Part shown: one piece after another, positions 3,131-40,322 of the stretch
Numbering within the stretch: the stretch's first letter is position 1
Layout of the letters: each line of letters opens with the position of its first letter
Assembly: GCA_028703835.1 (NCBI GenBank)
Contig: JAQVMB010000012.1
Coordinates: 1 to 44,844 of the forward strand
Origin: Candidatus Peribacteraceae bacterium
Lineage (GTDB): Bacteria > Patescibacteriota > Gracilibacteria > Peribacterales > Peribacteraceae
Direction of reading: 5' to 3'
Length of the DNA: 44,844 nt
Translations under genes and position numbers: made by a program
Notes under the pieces: generated by a model
The model's database searches: none
Seen by the model: the letters and a program-made list of their open reading frames with translations, nothing else
What the model was told of the DNA's origin: nothing

Positions 3131-3136
3131 TAGCTT
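3131..3136 (+). promoter_or_regulatory. Extended -10 box, TGC-TAGCTT
   Basis: TAGCTT preceded by TGC ends 7 nt before ATG 3144, the same geometry as the other surface-protein genes. Confidence 0.5.
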
Positions 3137-3143
3137 TCCTTCA

Positions 3144-7223: not shown

Positions 7224-7226
7224 GGA

Positions 7227-7243
7227 GCCCCGCACGGCGGGGC
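7227..7243 (+). other. Hairpin just after a surface-protein stop codon
   Basis: A perfect 7-bp stem, GCCCCGC/GCGGGGC, with a 3-nt loop lies 3 nt after the TGA. Homologous hairpins follow the paralogues at 15126 and 18879. There is no T-tract, so intrinsic termination is uncertain; mRNA 3'-end protection is another possibility. Confidence 0.5.
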
Positions 7244-7345
7244 GACGAAGGGTGGATGAAGAGGCGGAGAAACGGCGGTGGCCGGTAGTCTTTTGGGGGG
7301 CAGTGAATGAAAATGAATAGGGTGGCAAATCACGTGAGGATTTGC

Positions 7346-7351
7346 TATAAT
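7346..7351 (+). promoter_or_regulatory. Consensus extended -10 box, TGC-TATAAT
   Basis: A perfect TATAAT with an upstream TG ends 11 nt before ATG 7363. The predicted leader is only about 4-5 nt. Confidence 0.65.
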
Positions 7352-7362
7352 AGTCAGATTTT

Positions 7363-11487: not shown

Positions 11488-11535
11488 GGGTAAGTGAAGG
11501 AGAAGACAGACATTTCTTTCGTCCGCCGATTCTGG

Positions 11536-11541
11536 TAGTTT
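11536..11541 (+). promoter_or_regulatory. Extended -10 box, TGG-TAGTTT
   Basis: TAGTTT preceded by TGG ends 8 nt before ATG 11550. It supports that internal ATG over the upstream in-frame extension, which overlaps the preceding gene. Confidence 0.5.
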
Positions 11542-11549
11542 CAGCGCCA

Positions 11550-14500
11550 ATGACGAAGAAGAGGGTTTTCCTCGCGGCGGTGTTGGGTGTGGCGATCATA
11601 ACCGGTGTTTCTTGGGCGTTTTCGGCACAGATGCGCCACCTGACGGCACGGGTCTTTCTGGCGCAATGGGAAGAGGAAGGAGGCGAAGAGGCGGGCGCGG
11701 GTGGGGAAGATCTGGTGATCGACTGTGGGAGCGGATCTTGTGATGGGGGAGAGAATTGCAAGAACTGTCCTCAAGATTGTGCTTGCGAGGAGGGCTTTCG
11801 ATGCGGGAGGCCCTACTGGGGAACATATGCGGGTGATGATATGTGTGTTTATTTTTGCGGCAATGGAACCTGTGACGGAGGCTCAATAGCGTCAGAGGTG
11901 AGTGAAGATTGTGATACCTGCCCGCAAGATTGTCCTTGCGGGGAGGGACAGGAATGTAGCACGTTGGGTTATATCGATTTTGGAATGCAGGGCGGCGCTT
12001 GCGTCGACTCAGAATCGTCCTCTTCCGAGGGGTCGGAGGATTCGGGCAGTTCCGAGGAGCCGGAGGATCCCGATGATGCGGGGGATGCGGCGGACGACTC
12101 CGGTGACTCAGGCGATGCGGGCGACTCGGGCGATGCGGGCGATCCGGACTCCGGAGATGAGGATTCCTCTTCCTCTTCCTCCGAACCCGGCTGCGGCGAT
12201 GGCAAAAAGGGTTCAGACGAGGAATGCGACGATGGCGACAAAAACGGGACGGAGCAGTCGACCTGTACGGATGAATGCAAGAAGAAGAGGTGCGGCGACG
12301 GGCATGTGGATAAGAACATGGGCGAGCAATGTGACAACGGGGATCCGAATACGTACGATGCGATGGCGGGTTCCGTTTCCCGGGAGGACGGGGAAGGAGG
12401 TGCTCCGAATATCCCCGCGGGCATCGCGAATGGCATTGATCCGAAGCCTTCACTGAGTAACGGCAATCCGGATGCGTTGCACAGCAAAGCTTGGGATGAT
12501 GCCCTCAAGGAGAGTGATTGCATTGCCAAGACATGCAAGCGCACGGTATGTGCCAAGGCATTCGAGGGGGGCGGGAATGTTGGATCCACCTGCTACATTC
12601 ATCACGTGTATCAGGAGGGAGACAAAGATTGCGTGGACTTTCCGATGCAGGAGGATGCGGAGGGGAACATGGTGGGCATCCCGGGCAACAATCCCTTGGG
12701 CGTGCAGATCGATCTCTCCGGCTGCCCCCGGGCGCCGGGCATGAACGTCAACAATTTCAATGATATCTTCATCCTGCCGCCGGAGCGCAGCACGCAGGGG
12801 CTGGAGATGGGAGTGGATGAGGAGATGTTCTCGCAGGTGCCGCGTGCAAAAAACAATGATCCGGGGGAGAAGCTTTTTGCATTCATCACGCGCATGTTCC
12901 CGTTCCTTGCACACCTGCAGGCGGATACTTCCAGGCTTCCATCCTCCGCGCTTCTGGCGGATGTCAACGGCCAACCGTTTTCAAGCAACGAATGCACTGC
13001 CACGGGAGCAAGGACATGCGATCTGTATCCGAATCTCTATTATTGTGTCGAGAGATACGGGGTATCTTGTCCTGTGGGTAACGTCACGGTGCATGGCCCT
13101 TGTTGCCAAGTGCCTGGTGGGGAAACGCAAGGAAGCATATTGGAGTTTATGGGCAACTATAAAGACACAACTGCCAGACGATATGCCATCGTTGAGCAGT
13201 CAAAAGGCTTGTGTTCTGTTTCCGGAGATTGCAAGAGCGGAGTTTGTTACGATCCGGCAACCGGTACGGAGACGACGGATAACGGCGGCCGAAGCGGAGT
13301 GACATACTGTACGGATGCGCATCCTTGTGACTATGGATGGTGTGCTCCGGTGCAGCTGACGGTCTTTCCGCCGTGTTGCAATGCAGGGGCGAAAGATGAT
13401 ACGGCCAACAGCTATACGACAGACAGGACGAAGGGGGCCAACTACAACGGTGATATTATTTGCGCGGATTCCAAGTGTGTCATCCCGCAAGTCTCTCCCT
13501 ATCGGGGGGAGGGAGGCGGCGGTGGTGAGGCGGAACCGGGGAAAAATCAGACAAAGGGACGTTCTCCCACGAATCAACCTGCTTCAACGAAGCAGTCTAC
13601 TCCCCGGATCCAGGACGATAGTCGCAGTTCCGCCGGTGTTTCTTCAGACAGCCCCTCCTCCGACGAGGGCGGGGATGATGATGCGGATGACGACGACGGC
13701 CGCACTGTCAATTTCACCGGGGTCCGATACGGTGGAGTACGGTCTTCCGCCCGTTCCGGCTCCGGTTCTTCCGCCCGCACGTCCTCTCTGAGGAGTTCTT
13801 CCTCTTCGCGCGCCTCTTCCCTGAGAAGTTCTTCCTCTTCCCGCACCTCGAACAGCTCCTCCGGCAACAAAGCCTCCTCCGCCTCCTCCTCGTATCGTTC
13901 CTCCTCTTCCACCCACACGAGCGCCGCCCCCATCGACTATTGCAACGACTACGGTCTCTTTTGCTCCTCCTCCTCCGCACGTTCCGGAAGCATCTCTTCC
14001 GGCGTCGTCTATTCATCCCACGCTTCCTCCCTCCATTTGGCCGCCGTATCCTCCTCAACTGCCAGCAATTCTTTCTTCTTCAGTGCCTCCTCTGCCGCCT
14101 CTTCCCCTTTCACTTCCTCTTCCCCCATCGTTGTCTTCAACGCCGGCAGCAGCAGCAGCGCCAGTAGCATCATCTCCCCCTCCTGCGGCAACGGCGTCAT
14201 GGAGCAGTACCTCGGCGAGGAGTGCGACAGCGGACCCCTCAACGGTGCTCCCGGCAACGCCTGTGATGCTTCCTGCCGTCTCTTTCCCTCCTGCGGCAAC
14301 GGCAAGATCGATCCCGGCGAAGCCTGCGACGACGGCAGCCTCAACGGAACGTCCGCCTCCCGCTGCACCGCCGCCTGTACCCTCCCGTCCTCCGTCCAGC
14401 CTTTCTGCGGCGACGGTTCCCTCCAGGCCGGTGAGGAGTGCGACCATGGTTCCCGCAACGGCGTCTTCCCGGATGCGTGCTCGAGTGCCTGCCGCCTCCT

Positions 14501-15122
14501 TCCGCTCTGCGGCAACGCCGTCCTCGAGACAGGTGAGGAATGCGACGACGGCGCCAGAAACGGCCTCTCCATCAGCCCCTGCACCCTCGACTGCCGCCTG
14601 TTTCCTCCCTGCGGCAACCGCCGTCTCGACCCCGGCGAGACCTGCGATGACGGCAACCAGAATGTCGGAGACGGCTGCGATCCGTCCTGTCACCTGGAAC
14701 CCGGCATCCAGGCCTTCTGCGGCGACAACATCGTGGAGTTGGGTGAACAGTGCGATGACGGTGCGCAGAACAGCGACCTCCTTCCCGACCATTGTCGTAC
14801 GCGTTGCATCCTGCCGTACTGCAGTGACGGCGTGCTGGACATCGGAGAGCAGTGCGATTACGGCCAGATGAACGGCACGCCCTCCTCCCCCTGCGACAGC
14901 ACCTGCCGTGCGGTCGTTTCCGTCGCCGGTTCCGTTATCCAACCTCTTTCGCAGCAACAACAGCAAGTCACCATGAACGTCCCCTTCGTCGGCTCCGTCG
15001 TCACGGTCCCCCTCACGCAGCAACCCCTCCAGCAGACCGGCCCCGCCGCCCTCATCGCCGTGGCGGGAGGAGCGGCGGCGGGCTATGCGTGGATGCGGAG
15101 GAAGAAAAAGCGCTTGCCCTGA
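11550..15122 (+). CDS. Secreted Cys/Ser-rich DUF4215 surface protein, paralogue 1 (1190 aa)
   Basis: The start at ATG 11550 gives MTKKRVFLAAVLGVAIITGV, a clear signal/anchor helix; the longer open frame from 11292 overlaps the upstream gene. Order of parts: conserved TARVFLAQWEEEGG; two CGxGxCDGG..C..CPQDC modules; an acidic Asp/Ser linker (about 150-210); DUF4215-like modules; a unique Cys-containing domain (about 270-620) with KAWDDAL, CKRTVCAKAFEGG, CYIHHVYQEG and FNDIFILPPE; a Ser/Arg stalk (about 730-870); seven or eight DUF4215 modules; and the LQQTGPAALIAVAGG anchor ending MRRKKKRLP. The unique domain is shared only with the next gene (DDAIARSGC, CFIHHVFEEG, YADIFILPPE), so the pair is a tandem duplication. 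The domain's function is not recognised. Confidence 0.88.
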   Translation: MTKKRVFLAAVLGVAIITGVSWAFSAQMRHLTARVFLAQWEEEGGEEAGAGGEDLVIDCGSGSCDGGENCKNCPQDCACEEGFRCGRPYWGTYAGDDMCVYFCGNGTCDGGSIASEVSEDCDTCPQDCPCGEGQECSTLGYIDFGMQGGACVDSESSSSEGSEDSGSSEEPEDPDDAGDAADDSGDSGDAGDSGDAGDPDSGDEDSSSSSSEPGCGDGKKGSDEECDDGDKNGTEQSTCTDECKKKRCGDGHVDKNMGEQCDNGDPNTYDAMAGSVSREDGEGGAPNIPAGIANGIDPKPSLSNGNPDALHSKAWDDALKESDCIAKTCKRTVCAKAFEGGGNVGSTCYIHHVYQEGDKDCVDFPMQEDAEGNMVGIPGNNPLGVQIDLSGCPRAPGMNVNNFNDIFILPPERSTQGLEMGVDEEMFSQVPRAKNNDPGEKLFAFITRMFPFLAHLQADTSRLPSSALLADVNGQPFSSNECTATGARTCDLYPNLYYCVERYGVSCPVGNVTVHGPCCQVPGGETQGSILEFMGNYKDTTARRYAIVEQSKGLCSVSGDCKSGVCYDPATGTETTDNGGRSGVTYCTDAHPCDYGWCAPVQLTVFPPCCNAGAKDDTANSYTTDRTKGANYNGDIICADSKCVIPQVSPYRGEGGGGGEAEPGKNQTKGRSPTNQPASTKQSTPRIQDDSRSSAGVSSDSPSSDEGGDDDADDDDGRTVNFTGVRYGGVRSSARSGSGSSARTSSLRSSSSSRASSLRSSSSSRTSNSSSGNKASSASSSYRSSSSTHTSAAPIDYCNDYGLFCSSSSARSGSISSGVVYSSHASSLHLAAVSSSTASNSFFFSASSAASSPFTSSSPIVVFNAGSSSSASSIISPSCGNGVMEQYLGEECDSGPLNGAPGNACDASCRLFPSCGNGKIDPGEACDDGSLNGTSASRCTAACTLPSSVQPFCGDGSLQAGEECDHGSRNGVFPDACSSACRLLPLCGNAVLETGEECDDGARNGLSISPCTLDCRLFPPCGNRRLDPGETCDDGNQNVGDGCDPSCHLEPGIQAFCGDNIVELGEQCDDGAQNSDLLPDHCRTRCILPYCSDGVLDIGEQCDYGQMNGTPSSPCDSTCRAVVSVAGSVIQPLSQQQQQVTMNVPFVGSVVTVPLTQQPLQQTGPAALIAVAGGAAAGYAWMRRKKKRLP

Positions 15123-15125
15123 GGA

Positions 15126-15142
15126 GCCCCGCACAGTGGGAT
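15126..15142 (+). other. Hairpin after stop codon, second homologous copy
   Basis: This is the counterpart of the 7227 and 18879 hairpins, with a GCCCCGC/GTGGGAT stem. It contains G-T wobbles and one outer mismatch relative to the 7227 copy. Confidence 0.4.
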
Positions 15143-15252
15143 GATGAAGGGTGGATGCGGAGAAGGAAAGGTTGAGAGTAATGCATTGGGGGAAGGGTTG
15201 TTTGAGCAGCCTTCCTTCGCTGCGTCACATTCCCCTTTGCTTGCCTCTCTGG

Positions 15253-15258
15253 TAGTGT
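15253..15258 (+). promoter_or_regulatory. Extended -10 box, TGG-TAGTGT
   Basis: TAGTGT preceded by TGG ends 8 nt before ATG 15267, matching the spacing of the paralogous gene at 11550. Confidence 0.5.
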
Positions 15259-15266
15259 TCCTGCCA

Positions 15267-18200
15267 ATGTCGAAGAAGAAGATCTTCCTAGCGGCGTTGG
15301 GATTGACGGTATTTCTTTCCGCTTCATGGGGGGCATCGGCCACGTTCCGCCGTTTCACCGCGCGCGTATTCCTGGCGCAGTGGGAGGAGGACGGCGGCTG
15401 GGAAGAGGAGGAGCCTCCGTCGGATGATCCCGGTGCCGGAGAGGGAGATTCGGAGGGCCCAGAAGGAAACGTTCCTTGTAGTTCACTCGGGCCCGGTGCC
15501 ACGTGTCCCGGAGACTGCTACTGCGACCAGAACACAAAGTGCGATGTTGGTGGTGTTTGCGACACGTACCGCGGGAACAGTGAATGTGATCAGTGGATTA
15601 CTTATGAACCTTGTGAAGATGGGAGTGGATGTTTGCAGGGGACTGTCCATCCTGAAGATTGTAACAATAGCGGTGGAGATTGCCCTTGTGAGGCAGGAAC
15701 ACAATGTAAAGCGTTAGGTTGGGATTATTACACAGGAGATCCTGCATACGATTGCATATTTGAATCTTCCGATCCTGAAGAGGAAAATGATACTCCAGAA
15801 CCTGAAGTTCCTGAAGAAGACGGTGATACACCACAAACTGATCCTGATCCCTGGGTACCCGATGCAGTCGATGATGTGCCCGATGATGGCTGCGTCGGTA
15901 GTTCGTGCGGTGAGAGTGAATCTTCTTCTGATTCCTCATCTCCCGTCGCTGTATGTGGCGATGGCATCGTACAGAGTGGTGAGGAGTGCGACGAAGGCAA
16001 GGCGGAGACGAGTGAGTCGTACCCAAATCTCAACCGCATCGGCCATGACACTTCCGTGTGTAAAGAGGGTGGCAAGTGTTCCGATAATGTTGTGAACATC
16101 CCGGTAACCATCGCCGATGCCGTCGATCCTCTGCCTTCGTTCTCCGATCCTCGTCCTTATGCGCGCCACAACAAGACGTGGGATGACGCGATTGCACGAA
16201 GCGGTTGTCTGGATACATGCAAACGGTCGGCATGCGCCAAAGCATTCGCTGGTGGCGAACAGCCGAAATCCACCTGCTTCATTCACCATGTATTTGAGGA
16301 GGGAGAGGAGAGCTGCTTGGAACTTCCTCTGCAGGAGGACAGCGAAGGCAACGTGGTTGGCATCGAAGACAAGAACAATCCCCTCGGCGTGAAGATTGAT
16401 CTCTCGCGCTGTACTCCTGCCTTGGGTATGAACGTGAACAGCTACGCGGACATTTTTATCCTGCCTCCCGAAAGCAGTGGGCAGGGTTTGGAGTTCGGTT
16501 ACGACTTGTTTGCGCAGGCTCCTCTCGCCACAACCATCGCCCAAGAACACTCATCGTGGGAGCAGCTGCGTGCGCTCATGACGCGGTCCTTTCCATTCCT
16601 CGCGCGTCTGTCGGCCTCAGCCGATCCTCTTTCCTCCCCATTGCTGGCAGCGGCGGAAGGTGGAGAAAAAATCAATGGCACTAATAGTTGCGTCAAGCCT
16701 GGGGAATACACGTGTGACATCAATCCAAATCTCTATTATTGCGTTGATGTTAAGAAGTTTGAAACATCATGTCCGGGTGGAGATAAAAAACACCGATGCT
16801 GTCAGATCAGTACCGAGAGGACATACACTGATGATCAAGGTAATAGAAAGCAAATAGGAAATGTGTTGAAACTGGTCGCAGAGAAAGAAGGAGGAGCAAG
16901 GCAATATGACATTCAGGAAGAGGGGGGAGAGTATGATGATCAGGGAAGAAAGAAGTGTAAGTATAGCGGTCAGTGTAAGAGTGGATACTGTTACGACAGT
17001 GAACTTTATGATGCTAAAGGCGTTTATAAATTATGTTCAGGGCTCGGCTCATTTGACAATAGGGATGATTGCGATATAAAAGTGGGGCGGTGTGCAGGAT
17101 ATAGAATCACAGTCTTTCCACCCTGTTGTAACAATGTGGAAGTTAAAAAGGTAAATGGGAAAGAAGTGGACAGTAGTGGCACTGCGTATGTGTCTCCGGA
17201 CTCCGAAACGTACAGCAGATACTACATTTGCTCCGATTCGAAGTGTATCGGGCCAAGCGACAATGATGATTCTTCTCCTGGCTCTCCTCCGGGCGATGAA
17301 GGAGGGCCTCCTACAGGACAGAACACCGCAACGGGACGTCCCCCATCCAACAGTCCGGCACCCAATCGCGGTGATGGAGTTTCGTTAACTATCAATAGGT
17401 TTCCCGATCCACGTCCACGGCAACCTTCTTCTAATGGCCCCTCCTCTGAGGACGGAGGTGATGATGACGATGGCGGTGGTGGAGGCGGTGGCGGAGGCGG
17501 TGGAGGCGGGGGTGGCGAACGGTCTTTGCGCAGTTCCTCGTCGCGCGGCAGTTCCGCATCATCATCGTCAAAAGGGTCTTCCTCCCGCTCGGCTTCCTCG
17601 GGTAGCAGGTCGTCAGGCGGGTCTTCATCGCACTTTTCCTCGGGACGCTCGAGCAGCCTGCGCATCGACTACTGCCTCGAGTACGGTCTGTACTGCTCTT
17701 CCTCTTCGAGGAGGAGCTCCTCCTCCGGAACCGCCTACTCTTCACACGCCGGTTACTCTTCACATGTCACTTACTCTTCACACGCCGGTTACTCTTCGCA
17801 CATTTCTTCTCTCCATTTGGCCGCTGTTTCTTCCTCCTCGGCTGCCAGTCAACCGTTCTCCTTCTTATTCTCTTCCTCCGCTTTACCACCTGTTTCCGTC
17901 GCTTCCAGCAGCAGCGGCGGCATTATCTCCCCATCCTGCGGCAACGGCATCCGGGAGACGTATTTCGGGGAGGAGTGCGATATCGGCTCTCTGAATGGAA
18001 CGCCGGGCGCTTCCTGCACCGCATCCTGCCGTTTCCCGCCTGCCTGCGGGGACGGGAGATTGGACGTTGGCGAAGCTTGCGATGACGGCGCGTTCAACGG
18101 TACTGCCTCTTCCCGCTGTACGTTCTCCTGCACTCTCCCGCCGGGCATCCAGCCTTTCTGCGGCGACGGTTCCCTCCAAGCCGGTGAGGAGTGTGATCAC

Positions 18201-18875
18201 GGAAGCCGGAACGGTGTTTTCCCGGATGCGTGCTCGAGTACTTGCCGTCTCCTTCCGCTCTGCGGCAACGGCATCCTCGAGACAGGTGAGGAATGCGACG
18301 ACGGCGCCAGAAACGGCCTCTCCATCAGCCCCTGCACCCTCGACTGCCGCCTGCTTCCTTCCTGCGGCAACAAGCGTCTGGATCCAGGCGAAACCTGCGA
18401 TGACGGGAACCAAGTCAATGGCGACGGCTGCGACAATACCTGCCACCTCGAACCCGGCATCCAGCCCTTCTGCGGCGACGCCATCGTGTCGCTCGGCGAA
18501 CAGTGCGACGACGGCGCGCAGAACTCCGACCTCCTCCCCGACCGCTGCCGCACCCGCTGCATCCTGCCGTACTGCAGCGACGGCGTCCTGGACATCGGGG
18601 AGCAGTGCGATTACGGACAGATGAACGGCTCCCCCTCCTCCCCCTGCGACAGCACCTGCCGTGCGGTCGTTTCCGTCGCCGGTTCCGTGATCCAACCTCT
18701 TTCGCAGCAACAACAGCAAGTCACCATGAACGTCCCCTTCGTCGGCTCCGTCGTCACGGTCCCGCTCACACAGCAGCCCCTCCAGCAGACCGGCCCCGCC
18801 GCTCTCATCGCCGTGGCGGGAGGCGCGGCCGCGGGCTATGCGTGGATGCGGAGGAAGAAAAAGCGCTTGCCCTGA
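15267..18875 (+). CDS. Secreted Cys/Ser-rich DUF4215 surface protein, paralogue 2 (1202 aa)
   Basis: The start at ATG 15267 (MSKKKIFLAALGLTVFL) matches the paralogue and the -10 box; an upstream in-frame ATG at 15141 would precede the promoter. Parts in order: signal/anchor helix; FTARVFLAQWEEDGG; a Cys-rich segment with CPGDCYCDQNTKC and CPCEAGTQCKALG; an acidic linker (about 170-215); one DUF4215-like unit; the paralogue-specific domain (about 270-660: KTWDDAIARSGC, CKRSACAKAFAGG, ADIFILPPES); a poly-Gly run (about 735-752); a Ser stalk with AGYSSH/TYSSH units; about seven DUF4215 modules; and the LQQTGPAALIAVAGG tail. Codons in part of the specific domain (about 16660-17270) are visibly more AT-rich than the rest, hinting at a different history for that segment. 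Confidence 0.88.
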   Translation: MSKKKIFLAALGLTVFLSASWGASATFRRFTARVFLAQWEEDGGWEEEEPPSDDPGAGEGDSEGPEGNVPCSSLGPGATCPGDCYCDQNTKCDVGGVCDTYRGNSECDQWITYEPCEDGSGCLQGTVHPEDCNNSGGDCPCEAGTQCKALGWDYYTGDPAYDCIFESSDPEEENDTPEPEVPEEDGDTPQTDPDPWVPDAVDDVPDDGCVGSSCGESESSSDSSSPVAVCGDGIVQSGEECDEGKAETSESYPNLNRIGHDTSVCKEGGKCSDNVVNIPVTIADAVDPLPSFSDPRPYARHNKTWDDAIARSGCLDTCKRSACAKAFAGGEQPKSTCFIHHVFEEGEESCLELPLQEDSEGNVVGIEDKNNPLGVKIDLSRCTPALGMNVNSYADIFILPPESSGQGLEFGYDLFAQAPLATTIAQEHSSWEQLRALMTRSFPFLARLSASADPLSSPLLAAAEGGEKINGTNSCVKPGEYTCDINPNLYYCVDVKKFETSCPGGDKKHRCCQISTERTYTDDQGNRKQIGNVLKLVAEKEGGARQYDIQEEGGEYDDQGRKKCKYSGQCKSGYCYDSELYDAKGVYKLCSGLGSFDNRDDCDIKVGRCAGYRITVFPPCCNNVEVKKVNGKEVDSSGTAYVSPDSETYSRYYICSDSKCIGPSDNDDSSPGSPPGDEGGPPTGQNTATGRPPSNSPAPNRGDGVSLTINRFPDPRPRQPSSNGPSSEDGGDDDDGGGGGGGGGGGGGGGERSLRSSSSRGSSASSSSKGSSSRSASSGSRSSGGSSSHFSSGRSSSLRIDYCLEYGLYCSSSSRRSSSSGTAYSSHAGYSSHVTYSSHAGYSSHISSLHLAAVSSSSAASQPFSFLFSSSALPPVSVASSSSGGIISPSCGNGIRETYFGEECDIGSLNGTPGASCTASCRFPPACGDGRLDVGEACDDGAFNGTASSRCTFSCTLPPGIQPFCGDGSLQAGEECDHGSRNGVFPDACSSTCRLLPLCGNGILETGEECDDGARNGLSISPCTLDCRLLPSCGNKRLDPGETCDDGNQVNGDGCDNTCHLEPGIQPFCGDAIVSLGEQCDDGAQNSDLLPDRCRTRCILPYCSDGVLDIGEQCDYGQMNGSPSSPCDSTCRAVVSVAGSVIQPLSQQQQQVTMNVPFVGSVVTVPLTQQPLQQTGPAALIAVAGGAAAGYAWMRRKKKRLP

Positions 18876-30664: not shown

Positions 30665-31702
30665 ATGAAACAAACAGCAGCAACATCCCTCTTCCGTGAG
30701 GCCCAGAAACGCGGCGCCTCCGACGTGCATGTTGCGGCGGGGTCTCCCGTCATGCTCCGCATCGACGGGGAACTGCGCGCGGAAGGATCCCGCAACCTCA
30801 CGGCGGCGCAGGCGCTCTCCGTCGTCCGCTCCGCGTTGAGCCCGGCCGATTTCAAGCGCCTGCAGAAAGACCGGGAGATCGACGTGTCGCTGCCGCTGCC
30901 CGGCGGCGTCCGCGTCCGCGTCAATTGTCACTTCACGCGGGGGAACGTCGGCCTCGCCGCGCGCCTCATCCCGCCCGCGATCCCTTCCCTGGAGGAGCTG
31001 GGGCTGCGGGAGCTCGCGGCACTCGTCTTCGAACTGCGCAGCGGCCTCGTGCTGGTGACGGGCCCCACGGGCGCGGGCAAATCCACCGCGCTTGCGTCCC
31101 TCATCCACGCGTTCAACGAACGCGAGGCACGCAGCATCGTCACGCTGGAGGATCCCGTCGAGTTCGTGTTCCCGAAGGGGAAAGGCATCGTGCGCCAACG
31201 CGAGTATGGTCAGGACTTCCTCTCGTTCCCCGAAGCGCTCAAGCGCGTGCTGCGCCAGGACCCCGATATCGTGATGGTGGGCGAAATGCGCGACCCCGAG
31301 ACGGTGGCCGCCGCCCTCACGCTGGCCGAGACGGGGCACCTCATCCTCGCCACGCTCCACACGCCCGACGCCGTCCAGACCGTGGACCGCATCGTGGACG
31401 TCTTCCCGCCGCACCAGCAGGCGCAGGTGCGTTCCCAGCTCTCGCTCTCCCTCAAGATGATCATCGCGCAGCAGCTGCTGCCGGGGGCGAAGGGCGGGCG
31501 CATCGCGCTGCGCGAAGTGCTCGTGAACACGCCCGCGGTCGCGCACACCGTCCGTGACGGGCGCGCGCAGGAGCTGCCGTCGGTGATGCAGACGGGGGAG
31601 GATGCGGGGATGGTCACGTTCGCGAAGGCGGCGAAGAAGCTCTACAAGGACGGCGCCATCACGAAGGAAGTTTTCGAGGCGGTGACGCGGCCGGGGAGGT
31701 AA
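30665..31702 (+). CDS. pilT: Type IV pilus retraction ATPase PilT
   Basis: The 345-residue hexameric ATPase drives pilus retraction (twitching, DNA uptake). N-terminal PAS-like domain: ASDVHVAAGSPVMLRIDGEL. Walker A is GPTGAGKST (about 132-140). The Asp box (VTLEDPVEF), Walker B (DPDIVMVGEMRDPETV) and His box (TGHLILATLHTPDAVQTVDR) are all intact. The C-terminal part has ALREVLVNTPAVAHTVRDGR, the counterpart of the AIRNLIRE retraction motif. No other pilus genes are in the window. A dispersed repeat follows after 59 bp. Confidence 0.95.
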   Translation: MKQTAATSLFREAQKRGASDVHVAAGSPVMLRIDGELRAEGSRNLTAAQALSVVRSALSPADFKRLQKDREIDVSLPLPGGVRVRVNCHFTRGNVGLAARLIPPAIPSLEELGLRELAALVFELRSGLVLVTGPTGAGKSTALASLIHAFNEREARSIVTLEDPVEFVFPKGKGIVRQREYGQDFLSFPEALKRVLRQDPDIVMVGEMRDPETVAAALTLAETGHLILATLHTPDAVQTVDRIVDVFPPHQQAQVRSQLSLSLKMIIAQQLLPGAKGGRIALREVLVNTPAVAHTVRDGRAQELPSVMQTGEDAGMVTFAKAAKKLYKDGAITKEVFEAVTRPGR

Positions 31703-31918: not shown

Positions 31919-32090
31919 ATCTCCTCCAATATTATTTTGACGTTCTATAGTGCTATGGATCCTTTTTAATGGCTCATTGAAGCCAAAAAGTCTCCATGGC
32001 TTCCTTCCCGCTTTCCGGGGGCAGGTTGTCAGCGGCAGTTGACATGTATCTGTGAATATTTTTTGATATTGACGATCGGAAAAGGTTGGG

Positions 32091-32096
32091 TAGAGT
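32091..32096 (+). promoter_or_regulatory. -10 box TAGAGT
   Basis: TAGAGT ends 6 nt before the TTG at 32103, which favours that unusual start codon over GTG 32133. Confidence 0.4.
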
Positions 32097-32102
32097 ACAG
32101 GT

Positions 32103-34376
32103 TTGTCTCCGCACACCCCTCCTTTCCCCGTGAACACGCTTCCCTCCAGCATCGAGAACTATCTCCGCGAGGCGGGATTTTCCGGCACGGAGTTGATGGT
32201 GCTGAAGAAGCTGCTCGCGGAGGATGCCATGACGCTGCGGGAGATCGCGGCGAAGACGGGCAAGAGCACGGGCGTGCTGGACCAGGCGGTGAAGAAGCTC
32301 CTGCGGCGCAACATCGTGACGAAGGAATGGATCAACGACACCTTCAAGTACACGCTCGTCTCGCTGCAGGCCATTGCGTCGTGGATGGAGAAGGACACGC
32401 AGGAGAAGAGCGAGATGCTCCGCCGCCGGCACCAGAACTTCGAGACGTTCATCCGCTCCCTGGAGACGGACCAGAAGCGTCCCGACATGGAGTACTTCGA
32501 GGGATACGAGGGGATGGAGAAGGCCTACGTGCGCCTACTCGATCACACCAAGGAGACGCTCCACTACTTCCCCGTGGTCTGCGCCATCGAAGACGATCCC
32601 ATGCGCGATTTTCGCGTGCAGTACTTTCGCGAGCGCCGGTCCCGCGGCGTCTTCGCGCGCTACGTCGTCCACAATACGCCGCTCGGCCGCCGCTTCGTTT
32701 CCCGCGACCCCTTCGAGTACCGCAAGACGTACCTCGTCCCTGAGGATACGTACCCCATTCCGTTCGAGAAGGTGATCGCAGGCGACATCGTCGCGTGCTT
32801 CAACCACGCCGAGAAGCGCGTGTGCTTCCTGCGCTACCCGGAGCTGGCGGAGACGGAACGTTCCCTTTTTGAACGTCTTTGGAAGGAGCAGGAGAACGCC
32901 GTTGCGCTGCCTTCCCCGACGTCTCCTACCTCGAAGCCGGCCGTTCCCGCTGAGCCCCTCGTTCCGCTCTCCACCCGTGCGCTCTCGACGTTGCGGGAGT
33001 TTTTCGTCAGCAGAAGGAGCTTGGTGATGTTTGCCGTGTTTGCGGTGGTGGCGGGAGCGATAACGTATGGGTTGTACGCGCATTATTACCGTCTCAATCT
33101 CCAGATCATCGGCGAACGTGCGATGTCGATAGCATCCACGGGCGCGATGCAGTTCGAAGCCAAGGACTTGGATCAACTGCGGACCGTGTCGGATATTCAT
33201 AAACCGGAATATGCGAAAGTGGTGAAACAATTGAATGATATTCGGGAGAGGAACTCCCAGGTGAGGTTCGCATGGATCATGCGGTATACCGGGAGCGGCA
33301 ATACGTGGGAATTCGTTGCGGATGCGGATTCCCTCGACCCGTTTGCCAAGAAAGACTTGGATGGCAACGGGATCGTTGATGACGCTGATCATCTATCTCC
33401 GCCCGGCGAGAAGTATGAAGATGATCATGCAACCATGACATTGGCATTGAAAGAACCGGTTGCAGACGGATTTCCGACAATTGATCAATGGGGCACATTC
33501 ATCAGCGGGGAAGCACCGATATTTAATGCCGAAGGGAAAGCGGTAGCGGTGCTCGGCATTGATTATGAGTTGGACAGTCTCAGGGCTTTGAACCGCGAGA
33601 CGTTTCGGTCCGTGTTCATATTCATCGGTTTTTTTCTGCTCTTTGTTGTTATCCGTCTTGCTGCCTTCAATAAATCTCTTTTTCAGGAATTGTGGCAGGT
33701 GTTTAAGTTAAGGAAGGTATTGGTGACTGTTGTATTTTGTGCAGAAATAGCATTCTCCATCACGTTGGGATTGTACTATTACACGCTCAGTATTATGAAG
33801 GAGGATTTGGGGAACAAGCTCATGGCCATTGCCGCCACCGCGGCATCACAATTTGATCCGAATGATTTGAAACAACTCCATTTTGCGAGGGATATGAAGA
33901 CAGAGGCGTATCAACGGACATTCAAGAAGTTGAATGAGATTCGCGATAATAATGAGAACATTTTTTCCGTTTACATTCTTCGGTACATGAATGAGGATCG
34001 ACTATTTCAGGTTGTCGCAGATGCTGATGCCAATTTTGATCTTCCCTATTGGATCGATGACAATGCAAATGGAAAAATGGACATGTTGGAAGTGGTATGG
34101 GCACCTGGGATGTATTACGTCGATACCGCGGAGAAGAATTATCTGAGTACTCTTTCTGCTCCGGCTGCCGACAAAGATTTTGTGTTTGATGTCTGGGGAA
34201 CGTGGATATCTGGGTTTGCACCCATCAAGAAAGGTGATCAAGTCGTGGGAATACTTGGAGTGGATTTCGAAGCGACGCATGTGTACCAAGCAGTTAAAAG
34301 TAGATTTCAATTAGGGCTTTGGCTTATTGGAATCTTCGGGATTTTACTGGGTACGCGGCTAACCAGAAGGGGATAA
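32103..34376 (+). CDS. Membrane-anchored TrmB-like regulator with duplicated extracellular sensor
   Basis: The protein has 757 residues from TTG 32103 (GTG 32133 is the alternative). Residues about 15-85 form a TrmB-type winged HTH (GTELMVLKKLLAEDAMTLRE, IAAKTGKSTGVLDQAVKKLL). About 120-265 resembles the TrmB C-terminal phospholipase-D-like domain. A Pro linker leads to helix 1 (about 306-328), sensor 1 (about 330-500), helices 2 and 3 (about 503-562), sensor 2 (about 565-730) and helix 4. The two sensors are homologous: Q[FL]..KDL.QL, then DQWGTFISGEAPI / DVWGTWISGFAPI and V.GI.YE or V.FE ends, a Cache-like pattern. Each holds a 12-residue EF-hand-like loop (DLDGNGIVDDAD, 418-429; DDNANGKMDMLE, 652-663). 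Sensing outside and binding DNA inside as one protein is inferred. G+C drops sharply after about 33.1 kb. Confidence 0.8.
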   Translation: MSPHTPPFPVNTLPSSIENYLREAGFSGTELMVLKKLLAEDAMTLREIAAKTGKSTGVLDQAVKKLLRRNIVTKEWINDTFKYTLVSLQAIASWMEKDTQEKSEMLRRRHQNFETFIRSLETDQKRPDMEYFEGYEGMEKAYVRLLDHTKETLHYFPVVCAIEDDPMRDFRVQYFRERRSRGVFARYVVHNTPLGRRFVSRDPFEYRKTYLVPEDTYPIPFEKVIAGDIVACFNHAEKRVCFLRYPELAETERSLFERLWKEQENAVALPSPTSPTSKPAVPAEPLVPLSTRALSTLREFFVSRRSLVMFAVFAVVAGAITYGLYAHYYRLNLQIIGERAMSIASTGAMQFEAKDLDQLRTVSDIHKPEYAKVVKQLNDIRERNSQVRFAWIMRYTGSGNTWEFVADADSLDPFAKKDLDGNGIVDDADHLSPPGEKYEDDHATMTLALKEPVADGFPTIDQWGTFISGEAPIFNAEGKAVAVLGIDYELDSLRALNRETFRSVFIFIGFFLLFVVIRLAAFNKSLFQELWQVFKLRKVLVTVVFCAEIAFSITLGLYYYTLSIMKEDLGNKLMAIAATAASQFDPNDLKQLHFARDMKTEAYQRTFKKLNEIRDNNENIFSVYILRYMNEDRLFQVVADADANFDLPYWIDDNANGKMDMLEVVWAPGMYYVDTAEKNYLSTLSAPAADKDFVFDVWGTWISGFAPIKKGDQVVGILGVDFEATHVYQAVKSRFQLGLWLIGIFGILLGTRLTRRG

Positions 34377-34528: not shown

Positions 34529-35461
34529 ATGATTTTTCCAGTGTGGATTTTCCTTGCGATCGGCGGCCCGATGACTTGGGCTGCCGTCAATCATATTGAT
34601 AAATATCTCTTATCAGATCGTTTCTCTGAGTCTACGAAAGAGGGATCCGTCGGAGCACTCATGATTTTTTCGACGCTTTTCAGTGTTGTTGTTATCCCTA
34701 TTCTTCTTGTTATTCATCCGAATATTTTTTCTGTAGATATACTATCGGCTTCATGGCTGGTAGTTGCCGGTTTGTTGAACGCAACTTCAAATTATATTTA
34801 TCTCAAGGTGCTCGATATTGAAGAGGCAAGCATTGTTATGCCCATATTCGAGACGATGCCGATTTTTGGTTTCATTTTTGGATATTTTATCTTGGGCGAA
34901 ACTCTTAGTGTGTCTCAGGCGGTCGGCGCATTCCTTATTCTATCGGCCTGTATTTTTTTAACGGTTGAAATTGACTTTGAAGATAAGATCAGAATGAAGC
35001 ATCACGTGCTTTTCCCAATGCTATTGACTGCAGCCATATTTGCTCTTTCGCAAGTTTTTTTTAAACTCGGGGGAAATGTTCAAAATTATACCCAATCTCT
35101 TATATGGGTACACGTGGGTCTTTTTATGTTCGGTATCGTGCTCCTTTGCATTCCAAACAATCGTGCAAGTTTTGTTAAACTCGTAAAGAGAGATCCCAAA
35201 TTTATGTTTAATCTAAATCTTTCGAGTGAAAGTCTGACGGTTCTTGGTAATGTGCTGCATAACTACGCTCTGCTTCTCGCTCCCGTTGCATTAGTGATGG
35301 TTATCAGTAGTACGCAGTCGCTCTTTGTGTTTCTCTATGGGACGTTACTCACAATCTATTTTCCAAAACTGTTCAAAGAAAAGATTTCTAAGAAACATGT
35401 GTTTCAAAAACTATTTTGCATTTTGCTGATCATCATTGGAACAACAATCATTTCTCTATAA
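34529..35461 (+). CDS. EamA/DMT-superfamily membrane transporter
   Basis: The 310-residue protein has about ten hydrophobic helices in two halves. The first half has LLNATSNYIYLKVLDIEEAS followed by IVMPIFETMPIFGFIFGYFI and LGETLSVSQAVGAFLILSAC, the usual EamA consensus of helix 3-5 (A...P.......G...LGE.....Q..G..LI..G). The second half repeats the plan (YALLLAPVALVMVISSTQSL). Family members mostly export amino acids or metabolites; the substrate here is unknown. It stands first in the A+T-rich gene set with an ATP-grasp enzyme and a formyltransferase, so export of their product is a reasonable guess. Confidence 0.8.
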   Translation: MIFPVWIFLAIGGPMTWAAVNHIDKYLLSDRFSESTKEGSVGALMIFSTLFSVVVIPILLVIHPNIFSVDILSASWLVVAGLLNATSNYIYLKVLDIEEASIVMPIFETMPIFGFIFGYFILGETLSVSQAVGAFLILSACIFLTVEIDFEDKIRMKHHVLFPMLLTAAIFALSQVFFKLGGNVQNYTQSLIWVHVGLFMFGIVLLCIPNNRASFVKLVKRDPKFMFNLNLSSESLTVLGNVLHNYALLLAPVALVMVISSTQSLFVFLYGTLLTIYFPKLFKEKISKKHVFQKLFCILLIIIGTTIISL

Positions 35462-35642
35462 TACATCTCATTTGTGTATTTCATTTGTGTAAGCCATGTT
35501 TGTCATGACAAGTTGCCTTCAATTTCGTTTCGGAAGAACATCTTTGGGAAATTGAGAGATTGAGGTTGGCCCAGTGATTTCCCCTTTCTGCATATCGGCA
35601 ATGCATATCATACCGGCTATTGGCTTTCGAACGAAAATATTC

Positions 35643-35648
35643 TAATGT
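35643..35648 (+). promoter_or_regulatory. -10 box TAATGT
   Basis: TAATGT ends 8 nt before ATG 35657. The rest of 35462-35642 shows no gene. Confidence 0.4.
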
Positions 35649-35656
35649 GAAATTAC

Positions 35657-36961
35657 ATGCGAATATTGTTTGTTTCTAGGGATCTCAAAGCCGCTAATTT
35701 AGCATGTGTACTCAAATCCGAAGGCTGCGATGTGAAGCTTTTTATTGCAGATGAATTTCAGAGACCAAATTTTCAAAATCTTGTTCATAAGACACCTGAT
35801 TGGGAGAAGGAATTGCCCTGGGTCGGGAAGAACGGACTAATAGTGTTTGACGACATTGGATATGGGGCTGTTCAAGAAAGGCTGAGAAGTGAAGGCTATT
35901 CAGTCTTCGGTGGCTCCAAGCTGGGTGACAGGCTGGAAGAGGATAGAGAATGGAGCCAGGAGATTTTTAAAAAATATGGGCTGAAATCGCCTTGCACAAT
36001 AAATTTTAGTAACATCAAAGCTGCTATTTCTTTTTTACATCAAAAACAAGGTCCTTGGGTTATTAAGCAAAATGGATGCCTCCCGAAAGATATTAATTAT
36101 GTCGGGCACTTCAAAGATAACCGCGATGCGATTTCTGTCTTGGAAAATTATAATAGACACAATAGCGATAATCTCAGAATGATTACCCTCCAGAAGCGTG
36201 TTTACGGTGTGGAGGTTGGCGTGGCTAGGTATTTCAATGGCGATGATTGGGTGGGACCCATCGAAATAAATGTCGAGCACAAAAAACTTTTTCCTGGCGA
36301 TCTTGGGCCTACCACGGCTGAAATGGGGACTCTCGCCTGGTACACTGACAAAAGTAATTACCTATTTGACACGACTCTGGCAAAAATCAAACCATTCTTG
36401 AGAGAGATTGATTTTAGGGGAGATATTGACATCGGTTGTATTGCCAATGAAAGGGGAATATACCCCTTAGAGGCAACTCCCCGATTGGGAACACCAATTA
36501 TCCATCTTCATCGCGAGTTTCATGCTTCGCCTTGGCACCACTTCTTGAAGGCTGTGGCTGACAAAAAGCCATTTCGATTGAAATGGAAAAAGGGATACGG
36601 GATCGTTGTTTTAATTTCGCTGCCACCGTTTCCATACAATCGTCAAATTAGAGAACCTTCTCCTTTGGGGATAGAGGTTCACTTTGATCCTTCATTAACA
36701 AAGGATGATTATATGCACATCCATTTTGAAGGCATTTCCCTCGAACAACTTAAGAACAATGGCAAAAAATATTATATTTCGGACCCTTTTGGATATGCAT
36801 TGTATGTTACCGGTCTGGGAAAAACAATCAGTCAGGCGCGCCGAAAAACTAATAAATTGATCGAGAAGATCTGCATCCCCAAAATGTTCTACAGGAACGA
36901 CATCGGGTCGAGTTTTGAAGCAACGGGCAAAGAAATGTTGGAGAGGTGGGGCTATCTGTAA
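35657..36961 (+). CDS. PurD-like (GARS-family) ATP-grasp ligase
   Basis: The 434-residue protein resembles phosphoribosylamine-glycine ligase. The N-domain is MRILFVSRDLKAANLACVLK. A PurD-style segment follows (FDDIGYGAVQERLRSEGYSV, FGGSKLGDRLEEDREWSQ, then FKKYGLKSP), and then the ATP-grasp core (GPWVIKQNG; EVGVARYFNG; IDIGCIANERGIYPLEATPR, carrying the usual E.N.R-like metal ligands as E.TPR). ATP-grasp enzymes join a carboxylate to an amine through acyl phosphate. Substrates here need not be purine intermediates, since the sequence is divergent and no purine operon is present. A formyltransferase lies two genes on, paralleling the PurD-PurN order (inference). Confidence 0.75.
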   Translation: MRILFVSRDLKAANLACVLKSEGCDVKLFIADEFQRPNFQNLVHKTPDWEKELPWVGKNGLIVFDDIGYGAVQERLRSEGYSVFGGSKLGDRLEEDREWSQEIFKKYGLKSPCTINFSNIKAAISFLHQKQGPWVIKQNGCLPKDINYVGHFKDNRDAISVLENYNRHNSDNLRMITLQKRVYGVEVGVARYFNGDDWVGPIEINVEHKKLFPGDLGPTTAEMGTLAWYTDKSNYLFDTTLAKIKPFLREIDFRGDIDIGCIANERGIYPLEATPRLGTPIIHLHREFHASPWHHFLKAVADKKPFRLKWKKGYGIVVLISLPPFPYNRQIREPSPLGIEVHFDPSLTKDDYMHIHFEGISLEQLKNNGKKYYISDPFGYALYVTGLGKTISQARRKTNKLIEKICIPKMFYRNDIGSSFEATGKEMLERWGYL

Positions 36962-37113
36962 TTCGAAGTCGACAGCGTCATTAAGGATGCAACGGTGAGA
37001 GGGTCTGGACAATACGCCGCCGCCCATTGCATTTAGGATGAGAAAATTGGATATGTACAATATATTCAATCCTTGATACAATACAAGGACGTTTAGTACA
37101 TTAAATCCTCTCC

Positions 37114-37509
37114 ATGTTCTGGAACAAAAAAATCATATTTACTACAGTTGGCATCTCTCTATTTCTATCAATGGGGATAACGTTTTGTCGTTATTATATA
37201 TTGCGAGATTATATTATCTATGCGGAAGTGGCATGTGACCCGAACAAAGAAAAATGTTTTGTTAGACATTGTACGGAAGATGATTTGGATCCCTGCGATT
37301 TCCTCCATGTGAAATATACTCGGTACTACAAAATTGTGAGAAAGATTGCTTCCCATATTCCTCTCTGCAATCAAAACATTGAACAATGTCCTCCACTGAC
37401 CTGCCAGCCCTCCGAAGAGAATTGCGAGATAATTACTTGTACAGAGGGATATAATGATGACAACTGTAGTAATGTCAGAACTACCACGTCGCCAAAAGGC
37501 GCACAATGA
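37114..37509 (+). CDS. Small single-pass membrane protein with Cys-rich outer domain
   Basis: The 131-residue product has an N-terminal helix (IIFTTVGISLFLSMGITFC) and then an outside domain with nine cysteines: VACDPNKEKCFVRHC, DPCDF, LCNQNIEQCPPLTC and NCEIITC. The frame is preceded by a possible -10 box TACATT 11 nt before the ATG. Similar short CDPxxExCF proteins recur in CPR genomes to my recollection, but no function is known. Its end overlaps the formyltransferase start by up to 56 nt, suggesting coupled expression. Confidence 0.65.
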   Translation: MFWNKKIIFTTVGISLFLSMGITFCRYYILRDYIIYAEVACDPNKEKCFVRHCTEDDLDPCDFLHVKYTRYYKIVRKIASHIPLCNQNIEQCPPLTCQPSEENCEIITCTEGYNDDNCSNVRTTTSPKGAQ

Positions 37510-38551
37510 AGGGCATGGAGCGATTGCATCGAACGCCATTCGCATTTTTTTTGTCGGGTTGCACTACCAAACATTTCTCACTTTGCACGTAGAAAATGAC
37601 TTTGTACTTAAGGGGGTCAATTACATCGATTGTTTCTACCGGAGGACGATCAATCCGATCAATTGGCTTTTTATTTTGGCGTATGAACTCCATGCTCACG
37701 GAACGTGTAGATGGCTATCTCTTCTCTCATTGAAGCTATGGAATCTGCTTGATTCCTTTTCAGACCCCTCGTATGTGCGTTACAAAGATTACATCAATAT
37801 TATCTGCTCCGAAGGGATACAAGTAATTGATTGCGAAGACGAGATCCTATGTAAGAATTTTATTAAACATGCTCAGGTCGATTTATGTGTGGTAGACACA
37901 TGGGGAATGTTGTCGAATAAAATAATCGATTATCCCAGATTTGGCACAATTAATCTTCACCCTTCAGCGCTACCAAAGTATAAAGGTGCTATACCTGAAT
38001 TGTGGGCGCTAAAAAATAAAGACACGCAATCGGCACTGACTTTCATGATTCTTAACGCACAAATGGACGGAGGAAATATTATCGAACAAATACCCTTCCC
38101 CATCGATCCTCATGATTCACCGATTGATATTTCTAATAAAATAAATGCCATCACTGACCTCAATCTTTCGAGGGTGATACGACAGTATGTACAGGGCGAT
38201 ATTGTACCGAAGCCTCAAGTAGGGTGTGGCTCAAAAACAGCGAAATACGATGCCTATCAGCTGATAGATTTTATTGCTGAATCAGCAAAGGATATCTGCG
38301 ATAAAGTCGTAGCATATCCTTCTGGGGAACCGTGGGCATATTGTTATTTTGCGATGAATGGACATAAATATTATTTGTGTCATTGTGATCTGATATCTTC
38401 CCCTGCACCTTTGCTGCCTGGTCAATGCAAAAGGAATGGTTTCGATGTATTCTTTGGGACAAAAAATGGTATACTACAAGTAGTGCTCTTTAGAGATATT
38501 GGTTTCAATGATAGCATTAAGTTAATGTTTGAAATAAAAAATAACACCTAA
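37454..38551 (+). CDS. Formyltransferase (Fmt/PurN-type N-terminal fold)
   Basis: The 365-residue frame from ATG 37454 (ATG 37472 is equally possible) overlaps the preceding gene. The formyl-transfer core is clear: INLHPSALPKYKGAIPELWA carries the catalytic Asn-x-His pair (about 165-168), and ILNAQMDGGNIIEQ carries the catalytic Asp. Members use 10-formyl-tetrahydrofolate to formylate an amine such as Met-tRNA, GAR or an amino sugar. The C-terminal part (YPSGEPWAYCYFAMNGHKYY) resembles the Fmt C-terminal OB-like region, as in UDP-sugar formyltransferases. The N-terminal strand is IRIFFVGLHYQTF. A free-standing accessory role is likelier than initiator-tRNA formylation because of context and A+T-rich composition; substrate unknown. 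Confidence 0.78.
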   Translation: MMTTVVMSELPRRQKAHNEGHGAIASNAIRIFFVGLHYQTFLTLHVENDFVLKGVNYIDCFYRRTINPINWLFILAYELHAHGTCRWLSLLSLKLWNLLDSFSDPSYVRYKDYINIICSEGIQVIDCEDEILCKNFIKHAQVDLCVVDTWGMLSNKIIDYPRFGTINLHPSALPKYKGAIPELWALKNKDTQSALTFMILNAQMDGGNIIEQIPFPIDPHDSPIDISNKINAITDLNLSRVIRQYVQGDIVPKPQVGCGSKTAKYDAYQLIDFIAESAKDICDKVVAYPSGEPWAYCYFAMNGHKYYLCHCDLISSPAPLLPGQCKRNGFDVFFGTKNGILQVVLFRDIGFNDSIKLMFEIKNNT

Positions 38552-38555
38552 ATTT

Positions 38556-40322
38556 ATGATCTTCTGCAAGGCCTTTCCGGATCTGATGTGGTTTATGTTT
38601 ACGGGTAATCAGCCTCCATTGCTGTATTACTCTCATATTCCGACTGCAATTATTGCCCTAAGCATAGGAATTTATATATTGTCTCGTGGTCGTAGAGACT
38701 CCTTGAAGATTATCCTGAGTCTCTTATCCTTGGTTTTTGTTGTTTGGGTAATATTGGATCTGACACTATGGGTGAACCGTGATAGCAGAGTCATTATCAC
38801 TTTGTGGTCCCTGTACGGCATTCTCTATTCCGCCATTTCTTATCTATGTATCTATTTAACTAGTATTTTTCTGAATAATAAAATTCCATCTGTAAAGTTA
38901 AATGCAATCCTTGCTGCTCTATTTCTTCCAATTCTAGTCTTTACACCAACTCATTATAACTTGAGCGGAATCAATCTTCAATATTGTGGAGCCATAGGTT
39001 TTGAAGGGTTAAACTTTCTTAATTACTATACATTCATTGGGATACTCGCATTCATTTGGATATTCACCCAAGGTATTTTTAAAATTTTCAAAAGTGAGAA
39101 GTCGGGGCGGTTTAAAAATATTCTATTTATTTCGGGCATAGAATTCTTTTTGCTGTCATTTTTTCTATCAAGTTTTTTGGCAAGCTACTTAGTTGACTAT
39201 GGCTTAATGACTGATTATGGATTGGAGCAATATGGGCTATTGGGAATGGTGGCTTTTCTTGCGATGATTGCCTACCTAATTGTCCATTATAAAATGTTCA
39301 ACATTAAAATCATCGGTATACAGGCTTTGCTCGTCACAGAAGGAAGCATCATTGCGTCACTGCTATTCATACAAAGACTATCCTACATGTATGCCGTTAT
39401 TGCTGCTTCCCTCATCATTTATCTTATTTTGAGCATTATTACAGTTCGTGGTGTCAAAAGGGAAATTGAGGCAAAAGAAAGGGAACATGATCAGCGCGAA
39501 AAAATTGAAAAATTAGCTGTTGATCTCGAAAAAGCTAATGCTCAACTTAAAGAACTCGACCGTCAGAAAGACGAACTTATGAGCATCGTCAGTCACCAGC
39601 TCGCCGCTCCGGTAACGTCCATCAAGTGGTATCTGGAACTGCTGCGGGAGGGGGATCTGGGAGTTCTTCAAAAAGAGCAACGTGAGTCGATCGATACCAT
39701 GCAGGGTGTCACCACGAACCTGGCAGATCTCGTCAGCATGATTCTCGATGTGTCGCGCATCCAGCTTGGTCGCATGCGCATAGAAGCTGCTCCGTTGGAT
39801 CTCAAAGAATTCTTCCATGAGATTCTGGCTACGGTGGAGCCGAAGGCGTTGGAGAAAAAGATCAACTTCTCCAAGTCTTTGCCCGCATCGCTTCCCACGG
39901 CAACGCTCGACAAGCGTTACACGCGCATGACGATCGAGAACCTCCTGACGAATGCCATTAAGTACACGCCCAGCGAAGGGAAAGTGGAGATGAAGGTGGA
40001 AGTGCGGGGAGACAAGTTATGGTGCGCCGTGACGGACACGGGCGTCGGTATCCCGAAAGCCGAACAGGACAAGATCTTCGGCAAGCTCTTCCGTGCGAGC
40101 AACGTGCGCAACAACGTGGATGGCAACGGTTTCGGTCTCTACGTCGCGAAGGGTGCCATCGAGGCGCAGGGCGGGAAGATCTGGTTCGAGAGCGAGGAGG
40201 GCAAAGGTACGACGTTCTTCGTGGAGTTACCGCTTGTGCAGGCTGACGGTACCGTCACCGGTCATCAATCGGTTGAAGTGAAGTCAGCGGCGCTGAAGAA
40301 GAATAAGAAGAACGTTGCGTAA
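38556..40322 (+). CDS. Membrane sensor histidine kinase
   Basis: The 588-residue protein starts 4 nt after the formyltransferase stop, implying one transcript. Residues about 20-310 hold eight or so helices (7TM/16TM-type sensor). A coiled coil follows (EKIEKLAVDLEKANAQLKEL), then HisKA with the phospho-acceptor in SIVSHQLAAPVTSIKWYLE (about 340-355; the usual form is SHELRTPL). The HATPase_c domain shows N (ENLLTNAIKYTP), G1 (VTDTGVGIP), F and G2 (NGFGLYVAKGAIEAQGG) boxes. Base composition switches from A+T-rich in the sensor to G+C-rich from the HisKA domain, so the gene looks chimeric. The receiver gene follows after 14 bp. Confidence 0.92.
   Translation: MIFCKAFPDLMWFMFTGNQPPLLYYSHIPTAIIALSIGIYILSRGRRDSLKIILSLLSLVFVVWVILDLTLWVNRDSRVIITLWSLYGILYSAISYLCIYLTSIFLNNKIPSVKLNAILAALFLPILVFTPTHYNLSGINLQYCGAIGFEGLNFLNYYTFIGILAFIWIFTQGIFKIFKSEKSGRFKNILFISGIEFFLLSFFLSSFLASYLVDYGLMTDYGLEQYGLLGMVAFLAMIAYLIVHYKMFNIKIIGIQALLVTEGSIIASLLFIQRLSYMYAVIAASLIIYLILSIITVRGVKREIEAKEREHDQREKIEKLAVDLEKANAQLKELDRQKDELMSIVSHQLAAPVTSIKWYLELLREGDLGVLQKEQRESIDTMQGVTTNLADLVSMILDVSRIQLGRMRIEAAPLDLKEFFHEILATVEPKALEKKINFSKSLPASLPTATLDKRYTRMTIENLLTNAIKYTPSEGKVEMKVEVRGDKLWCAVTDTGVGIPKAEQDKIFGKLFRASNVRNNVDGNGFGLYVAKGAIEAQGGKIWFESEEGKGTTFFVELPLVQADGTVTGHQSVEVKSAALKKNKKNVA

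Follow-up and report, generated by a model that had tools for sequence, protein, structure and literature searches.

Membrane-bound one-component regulators are well documented as a class, and in the main text of a survey of transmembrane transcription regulators (TTRs; PMC10269533) proteins such as CadC, ToxR and TcpP carry a cytoplasmic winged-helix DNA-binding domain, a TM helix and an outside sensor in one chain, most of them being single-pass (56%); the terms TrmB and Cache are absent from that main text. Cache (PDC) sensors sit between two TM helices on kinases, chemoreceptors and some transcription factors, the last being well documented (PMC4822843). The described TrmB proteins (PMC4158304) are soluble and either sense cytoplasmic sugars and other factors or act on chromatin, and those of the TrmBL2 type (PF01978) consist of a winged HTH, a dimer helix and an alpha/beta domain in about 260 aa. 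ArnR/ArnR1 of Sulfolobus, as cited in PMC13286277, is a membrane-bound one-component activator of the archaellum.

The protein described here is encoded in a window of 44,844 nucleotides (the whole stretch of DNA that was analysed) from a Candidatus Peribacteraceae bacterium. It resembles the TTRs in combining the same three parts in one chain, but differs from the mostly single-pass proteins of that survey's text in having a TrmB-type DNA-binding domain, two homologous Cache sensors and four TM helices; across its family the number of sensor units ranges from one to three. It shares the three-part TrmBL2 organisation with its known kin, the TrmB proteins (PMC4158304; PMC9426492), but unlike these soluble proteins it runs on into membrane sensors, without the PF11495 sugar domain. 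Its sensors have the fold and the placement of Cache domains, but with an EF-hand-type loop inside the domain, a TrmB output and tandem TM-Cache-TM units. With ArnR/ArnR1 it has in common an N-terminal HTH anchored in the membrane and a link to surface motility; those proteins, however, are archaeal, with a different HTH context, and the text of PMC13286277 that cites them mentions no Cache sensors. While the types of component are known, TrmB with multiplied Cache units and swappable sensors appears undescribed: the literature searched for the architecture held no described case of TrmB paired with repeated Cache domains, and for that pairing the statement of an earlier, sequence-only reading that no described regulator has this architecture stands. 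Nor did the literature searched contain papers on TrmB with Peregrinibacteria, on Peregrinibacteria signalling, or on Cache with EF-hand and histidine kinase.

The gene is a single frame without internal stop (Table 1). Because most relatives begin at the residue aligned with GTG 32130, this codon is probably the start, giving 748 aa, and the residue numbers of the domains count from it (AF2 numbering); TTG 32103, near the -10-like box, is a possible alternative. Within the gene GC drops from 0.64 to 0.41, in the 32.9-33.1 kb region where, according to the sequence-only reading, a frameshift or assembly join might have undone its interpretation. Either is ruled out, since the whole chain is encoded in many independent genomes and almost every full-length relative examined shows the same GC3 fall between DNA-binding and sensor parts. 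The fall is sharp in nearly every GC-rich relative (L036-L076, gene-wide), which suggests that the modules may differ in age or source.

Table 1. Features of the regulator gene and its neighbours, in window coordinates.
Feature	Coordinates	Strand	Evidence
Membrane-bound regulator TrmB-(TM-Cache-TM)x2, whole ORF	32103..34376	+	ORF reading, alignment, AF2
TrmB-type winged helix-turn-helix, residues 6-76	32145..32357	+	PF01978 above cut-off, AF2, alignment
Recognition helix STGVLDQAVKKLL	32265-32303	+	several residues invariant in 17 family members (alignment)
Dimer helix and alpha/beta domain, TrmBL2 type, residues 79-259	32364..32906	+	AF2; Foldseek to 5bpd
Juxtamembrane helix (LSTLREFFVSRRS), conserved, and first TM helix	32967..33062	+	TM search, alignment, AF2
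Sensor 1, Cache fold, residues 344-480	33159..33569	+	AF2, full chain and isolated domain; Foldseek
EF-hand-like loop DLDGNGIVDDAD, sensor 1, residues 409-420	33354..33389	+	pattern match
TM2, short inside loop, TM3	33612..33755	+	90-96% conserved between close relatives differing in sensor 1
Sensor 2, Cache fold, residues 577-714	33858..34271	+	AF2; identity to sensor 1
EF-hand-like loop DDNANGKMDMLE, sensor 2, residues 643-654	34056..34091	+	pattern match
TM4	34305..34361	+	TM search, AF2
39-bp promoter/operator-like element directly upstream of gene	32068..32106	+	profile in first-in-operon members; single own-genome match
-35-like TTGACG; -10-like TAGAGT; then ACAGGTTTGT	32069-32074; 32091-32096	+	parts of 39-bp element
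PilT-family type IV pilus ATPase, upstream neighbour	30665..31702	+	TIGR01420, 398 bits; upstream in 20/31 relatives' loci
Membrane sensor histidine kinase, downstream neighbour, multi-TM sensor here	38556..40322	+	HisKA and HATPase_c

At the N-terminus, ORF residues 21-87 match the Pfam TrmB model (PF01978) with 27.0 bits against a cut-off of 25.6 (E 4e-6), and with 31.4 bits in a search of the own genome, which encodes five TrmB proteins, of which four have the size of soluble ones (259-284 aa as open frames). The AlphaFold2 (AF2) model, built from 41 family sequences with a mean pLDDT of 86, places a winged HTH at residues 6-76, a helix at 79-112 and an alpha/beta domain at 119-259. In Foldseek the best match of this part was archaeal TrmBL2 (5bpd; 3e-9, probability 1.00), showing that the overall TrmB fold of HTH, dimer helix and alpha/beta domain is present. 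The winged HTH proposed earlier is thus borne out by the model and by PF01978, and the TrmB-like ligand domain proposed with it survives in part: an alpha/beta domain of the TrmBL2 type is there, but it is not the PF11495 sugar-binding domain, for which a Pfam scan of the window protein gave no match. By sequence and predicted fold, the protein belongs to the TrmB family and not to its sugar-sensing subfamily.

The window protein has four hydrophobic TM segments. In the AF2 model the alpha/beta domain is followed by a linker (residues 260-276, flexible and of low confidence, between the DNA-binding module and TM1), the juxtamembrane helix with TM1, sensor 1, TM2, TM3, sensor 2 and TM4; the low pTM of the full chain (0.50) fits separate domains of uncertain relative placement. 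As a sequence-only PDB search with the full chain gave nothing useful and a sensor profile search only weak matches, a fold search was needed. In the Foldseek search of the full model the rest of the chain matched Cache sensors, and isolated sensor 1 (AF2 pLDDT 90) matched KinD (4jgo/4jgq) at 6e-6 to 1e-5, and also DctB, CitA and Tlp3/chemoreceptor Cache domains. The two sensors have one fold and 35% identity, each lying between TM helices. In contrast to described Cache sensors, the window protein stays below the cut-off of every Pfam Cache model; some family members give weak matches (sCache_3_3, dCache_1, sCache_3_2; best E 3e-4), and one kinase sensor scored 19.0 bits against a cut-off of 28.4. 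Membership of the predicted sensors in the Cache superfamily rests on the fold of the closest solved structures, and AF2, these fold matches and family conservation together support what had been read as two homologous Cache-like outside sensors between helices.

Full-length relatives occur across Peribacteraceae with up to 62% identity, and among GTDB genomes nearly all relatives belong to Candidatus Peribacteraceae/Peregrinibacteria. Of 287 genomes sampled over the phylum, all 13 that belong to the window's own family gave matches at E<=1e-20, and no genome outside it did. Two family members are unrelated in phylum by label (L067, a Micrarchaeota MAG, and L075, a Kiritimatiellales MAG) and have Peribacteria-like neighbours; their contigs are probably misbinned. 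Among the ORFs in the fetched loci, 17 have one sensor, 23 have two and 2 have three, and a few further ORFs consist of the DNA-binding module alone, some of these being cut or split; L074 is a module without sensor, and L066 has its sensor as a separate ORF.

The surroundings of the gene are also conserved. All 22 loci with enough flank encode a histidine kinase no more than 6.5 kb downstream, on the same strand in 21, and LigA lies upstream in 25 of 31 loci. In 24 ORFs of the fetched loci the same Cache sensor is joined to a C-terminal part of about 240 aa, the size of a kinase core, which is a histidine kinase in the ORFs scanned; the kinase sensor is of this Cache type in most relatives and of another, multi-TM type in the window's genus. 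In small related genomes such synteny is only suggestive of function, but these loci come from different genera, at about 40-62% protein identity to the window protein. The kinase of the window has an AT-rich multi-TM N-terminus (GC3 0.29-0.47) followed by a GC-rich kinase part (0.68-0.81), as if a sensor had been exchanged onto a kinase already present. Elsewhere in the own genome (contig C32, L002:1426-2838, + strand) the sensor type with Cache fold and EF loop occurs a second time, joined to the ATPase domain of a histidine kinase. From 34529 to 40322 the window carries a low-GC run on the + strand, with an EamA transporter, an ATP-grasp/purD-like protein, a small protein, a formyltransferase and the kinase; in the closest relative, L036, neither the ATP-grasp gene nor that for the formyltransferase was observed between the regulator and kinase genes. 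At 1118-18875 the window encodes several very large proteins that look secreted; they contain repeated CGDG/GEECDDG cysteine units and linkers rich in serine, and have a C-terminal TM end in common.

The 12-residue pattern by which the EF-hand-like loops were defined (D-x-[DN]-x-[DN]-G-x-hydrophobic-x-x-x-[DE]) recurs in 62 of 94 family sensors, in the same place each time, against 0.1% of shuffled sensors, and is present in 22 of 25 kinase sensors. The loop probably holds calcium or another divalent ion. Of 42 first sensors 19 lack the strict loop, as do 9 of 24 second sensors, and overall it is absent from about one third of the family's sensors; calcium is therefore more likely to have a structural or modulating role than that of a universal signal. 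Of the one-component membrane regulator with two outside sensors and EF-hand-like loops originally proposed, the architecture is supported by structure prediction, fold matches and family conservation, and the loops are real and conserved; calcium as a universal signal is the less plausible part. The kinase partner, the conserved promoter element and the exchange of sensors go beyond that sequence-only reading. A calcium-dependent protease with a Cache-domain receptor (PMC13090378) was considered as a parallel and dropped, as its calcium site lies in the protease, not in the Cache domain.

Near-identical DNA-binding modules carry rather different sensors. Between close relatives (L040 or L041 against L045, L050 against L053, L042 against L047, L051 against L061) the modules are 87-95% identical and the first sensors 48-55%, and overall sensor identity is only 45-55% where that of the modules reaches up to 95%, so that sensors are apparently exchanged, gained and lost as cassettes. 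The first sensors of L040 and L041 are about 90% identical and their second sensors about 50-60%; between L040 and L045 identity is about 45% in sensor 1 and about 90% at the TM2-TM3 junction, and L061 is L051 minus one whole unit. In the sensor tree the S1 and S2 labels mix (L051 S2 with L061 S1, L054 S2 with L036 S1, L056 S2 with L044 S1) and the kinase sensors stay separate (support 81/84); in the tree of the DNA-binding module the unit number changes many times. At the level of this protein comparison, exchange and deletion of sensor units would explain the data better than a uniform fast rate. It is quite conceivable, though short of probable, that the family forms a sensor-cassette system, in which a near-fixed TrmB module with its conserved own promoter stays at one syntenic locus beside a histidine kinase and the outside TM-Cache units are exchanged, duplicated and lost from strain to strain; one autoregulatory circuit would thereby repeatedly be given new ligand receptors.

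The 39-bp element has the consensus CTTTACAT-N5-AAAAAT-N3-GTAGAGTACnGGnTTGC, mostly ends at the start codon, and precedes 36 of 41 first-in-operon copies; it is absent from downstream tandem copies. Its profile matched the own genome once, at the regulator gene (E 1e-4), with no second genomic target found there, and gave its best whole-genome match at the regulator in 9 of 12 relatives' genomes, the E-values being partly circular, as the profile was trained on the family's own upstream regions (several of the 12 relatives' sites included) and kinship among these inflates the score, whereas the absence of other sites is not circular. Since the sensorless copy L074 is also preceded by the element, the latter appears to track the TrmB module, not the sensors. 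The same motif search with pilT and kinase upstream regions gave an ordinary TGgTATAAT box of less information, not the 39-bp element; TGgTATAAT is an extended -10 box common to the pilT and kinase genes of the loci searched. Palindrome analysis found a dyad, GTA-N3-TAC, over the -10 box of the element, only suggestive as an operator palindrome and only loosely parallel to the TACTN3AGTA that P. furiosus TrmB binds over its promoter (PMC4158304). Because the element precedes the gene and occurs once in the genome, we infer autoregulation and read the element as a probable operator-promoter bound by the TrmB module.

With PF01978 above cut-off and four TM segments, one chain holds a DNA-binding domain and at least one TM region; its control of transcription from the membrane is putative, with the own-promoter element as indirect evidence. 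We consider it likely that the protein is a ligand-gated transmembrane one-component transcription regulator acting on its own promoter. From the computed fold, TM segments, family, conserved element and neighbours we infer the following mechanism, from the binding of ligand, metal and element to autoregulation and its direction. The TrmBL2-like module would lie in the cytoplasm and bind DNA as a dimer, and the two Cache domains would bind a small ligand outside the cell, their EF-hand-type loops holding calcium or another divalent ion. Ligand binding would shift the TM helices and the juxtamembrane helix and so alter DNA binding, the first target most likely being the own promoter, via the 39-bp element that overlaps the -35 and -10 boxes. 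The regulator would thereby control, at the membrane, its own expression and that of co-transcribed genes, and the neighbouring histidine kinase may read the same or a similar signal in parallel.

Other explanations share parts of this evidence. The 39-bp element could be a promoter variant of an ordinary kind, or could serve another factor, in which case the regulator would act on distant genes and not on itself. Its -35-like and -10-like boxes stand at promoter spacing, it ends at the start codon in most copies, and weaker versions occur near some kinase and EamA genes; but the flanking GTAGAGTACnGGnTTGC shows tighter constraint than the promoters of pilT and the kinase, occurs nowhere else in the own genome and stays with the TrmB module from one genome to the next, and we regard this alternative as doubtful, although deserving attention. 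That calcium is the signal itself, the two EF-hand-bearing domains forming a calcium receptor, would fit the loops in both window sensors and in most kinase sensors. Against this stand the many first and second sensors without the loop, and single EF loops in other folds are often structural, which makes a calcium receptor unlikely.

There are two further rival readings. On sensor engagement, proteolysis could free the DNA-binding module to act as a soluble factor, as the flexible linker before TM1 would allow and as relatives encoding the module without a sensor (L074) or with a separate one (L066) might suggest; yet the strong conservation of the juxtamembrane helix is what mechanical coupling, but not a cut site, would lead one to expect, and no partner protease was seen at the locus, so that release by cleavage seems distinctly improbable. 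Very improbable, in our judgement, is an architectural role, in which the protein would anchor the chromosome at the membrane, its sensors tuning this anchoring with no specific promoter involved: the closest solved structure, TrmBL2, is an archaeal chromatin protein, and the own genome offered no second specific site, but the own-promoter element and the invariant residues of the recognition helix favour sequence-specific binding. A ligand-gated regulator acting on its own promoter is the reading that we prefer.

Genomes are small in CPR bacteria such as Peribacteria, and little is known of how these organisms sense their partners or surroundings. In Peribacteraceae an outside chemical signal is probably converted directly into gene control by a membrane-anchored DNA-binding protein. 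A receptor that acts directly on DNA, combining exchangeable sensors with a promoter element of its own, a kinase partner and a place beside a pilus-retraction gene, would make a compact and testable model, and would extend the TrmB family, soluble in the literature found, to transmembrane signalling.
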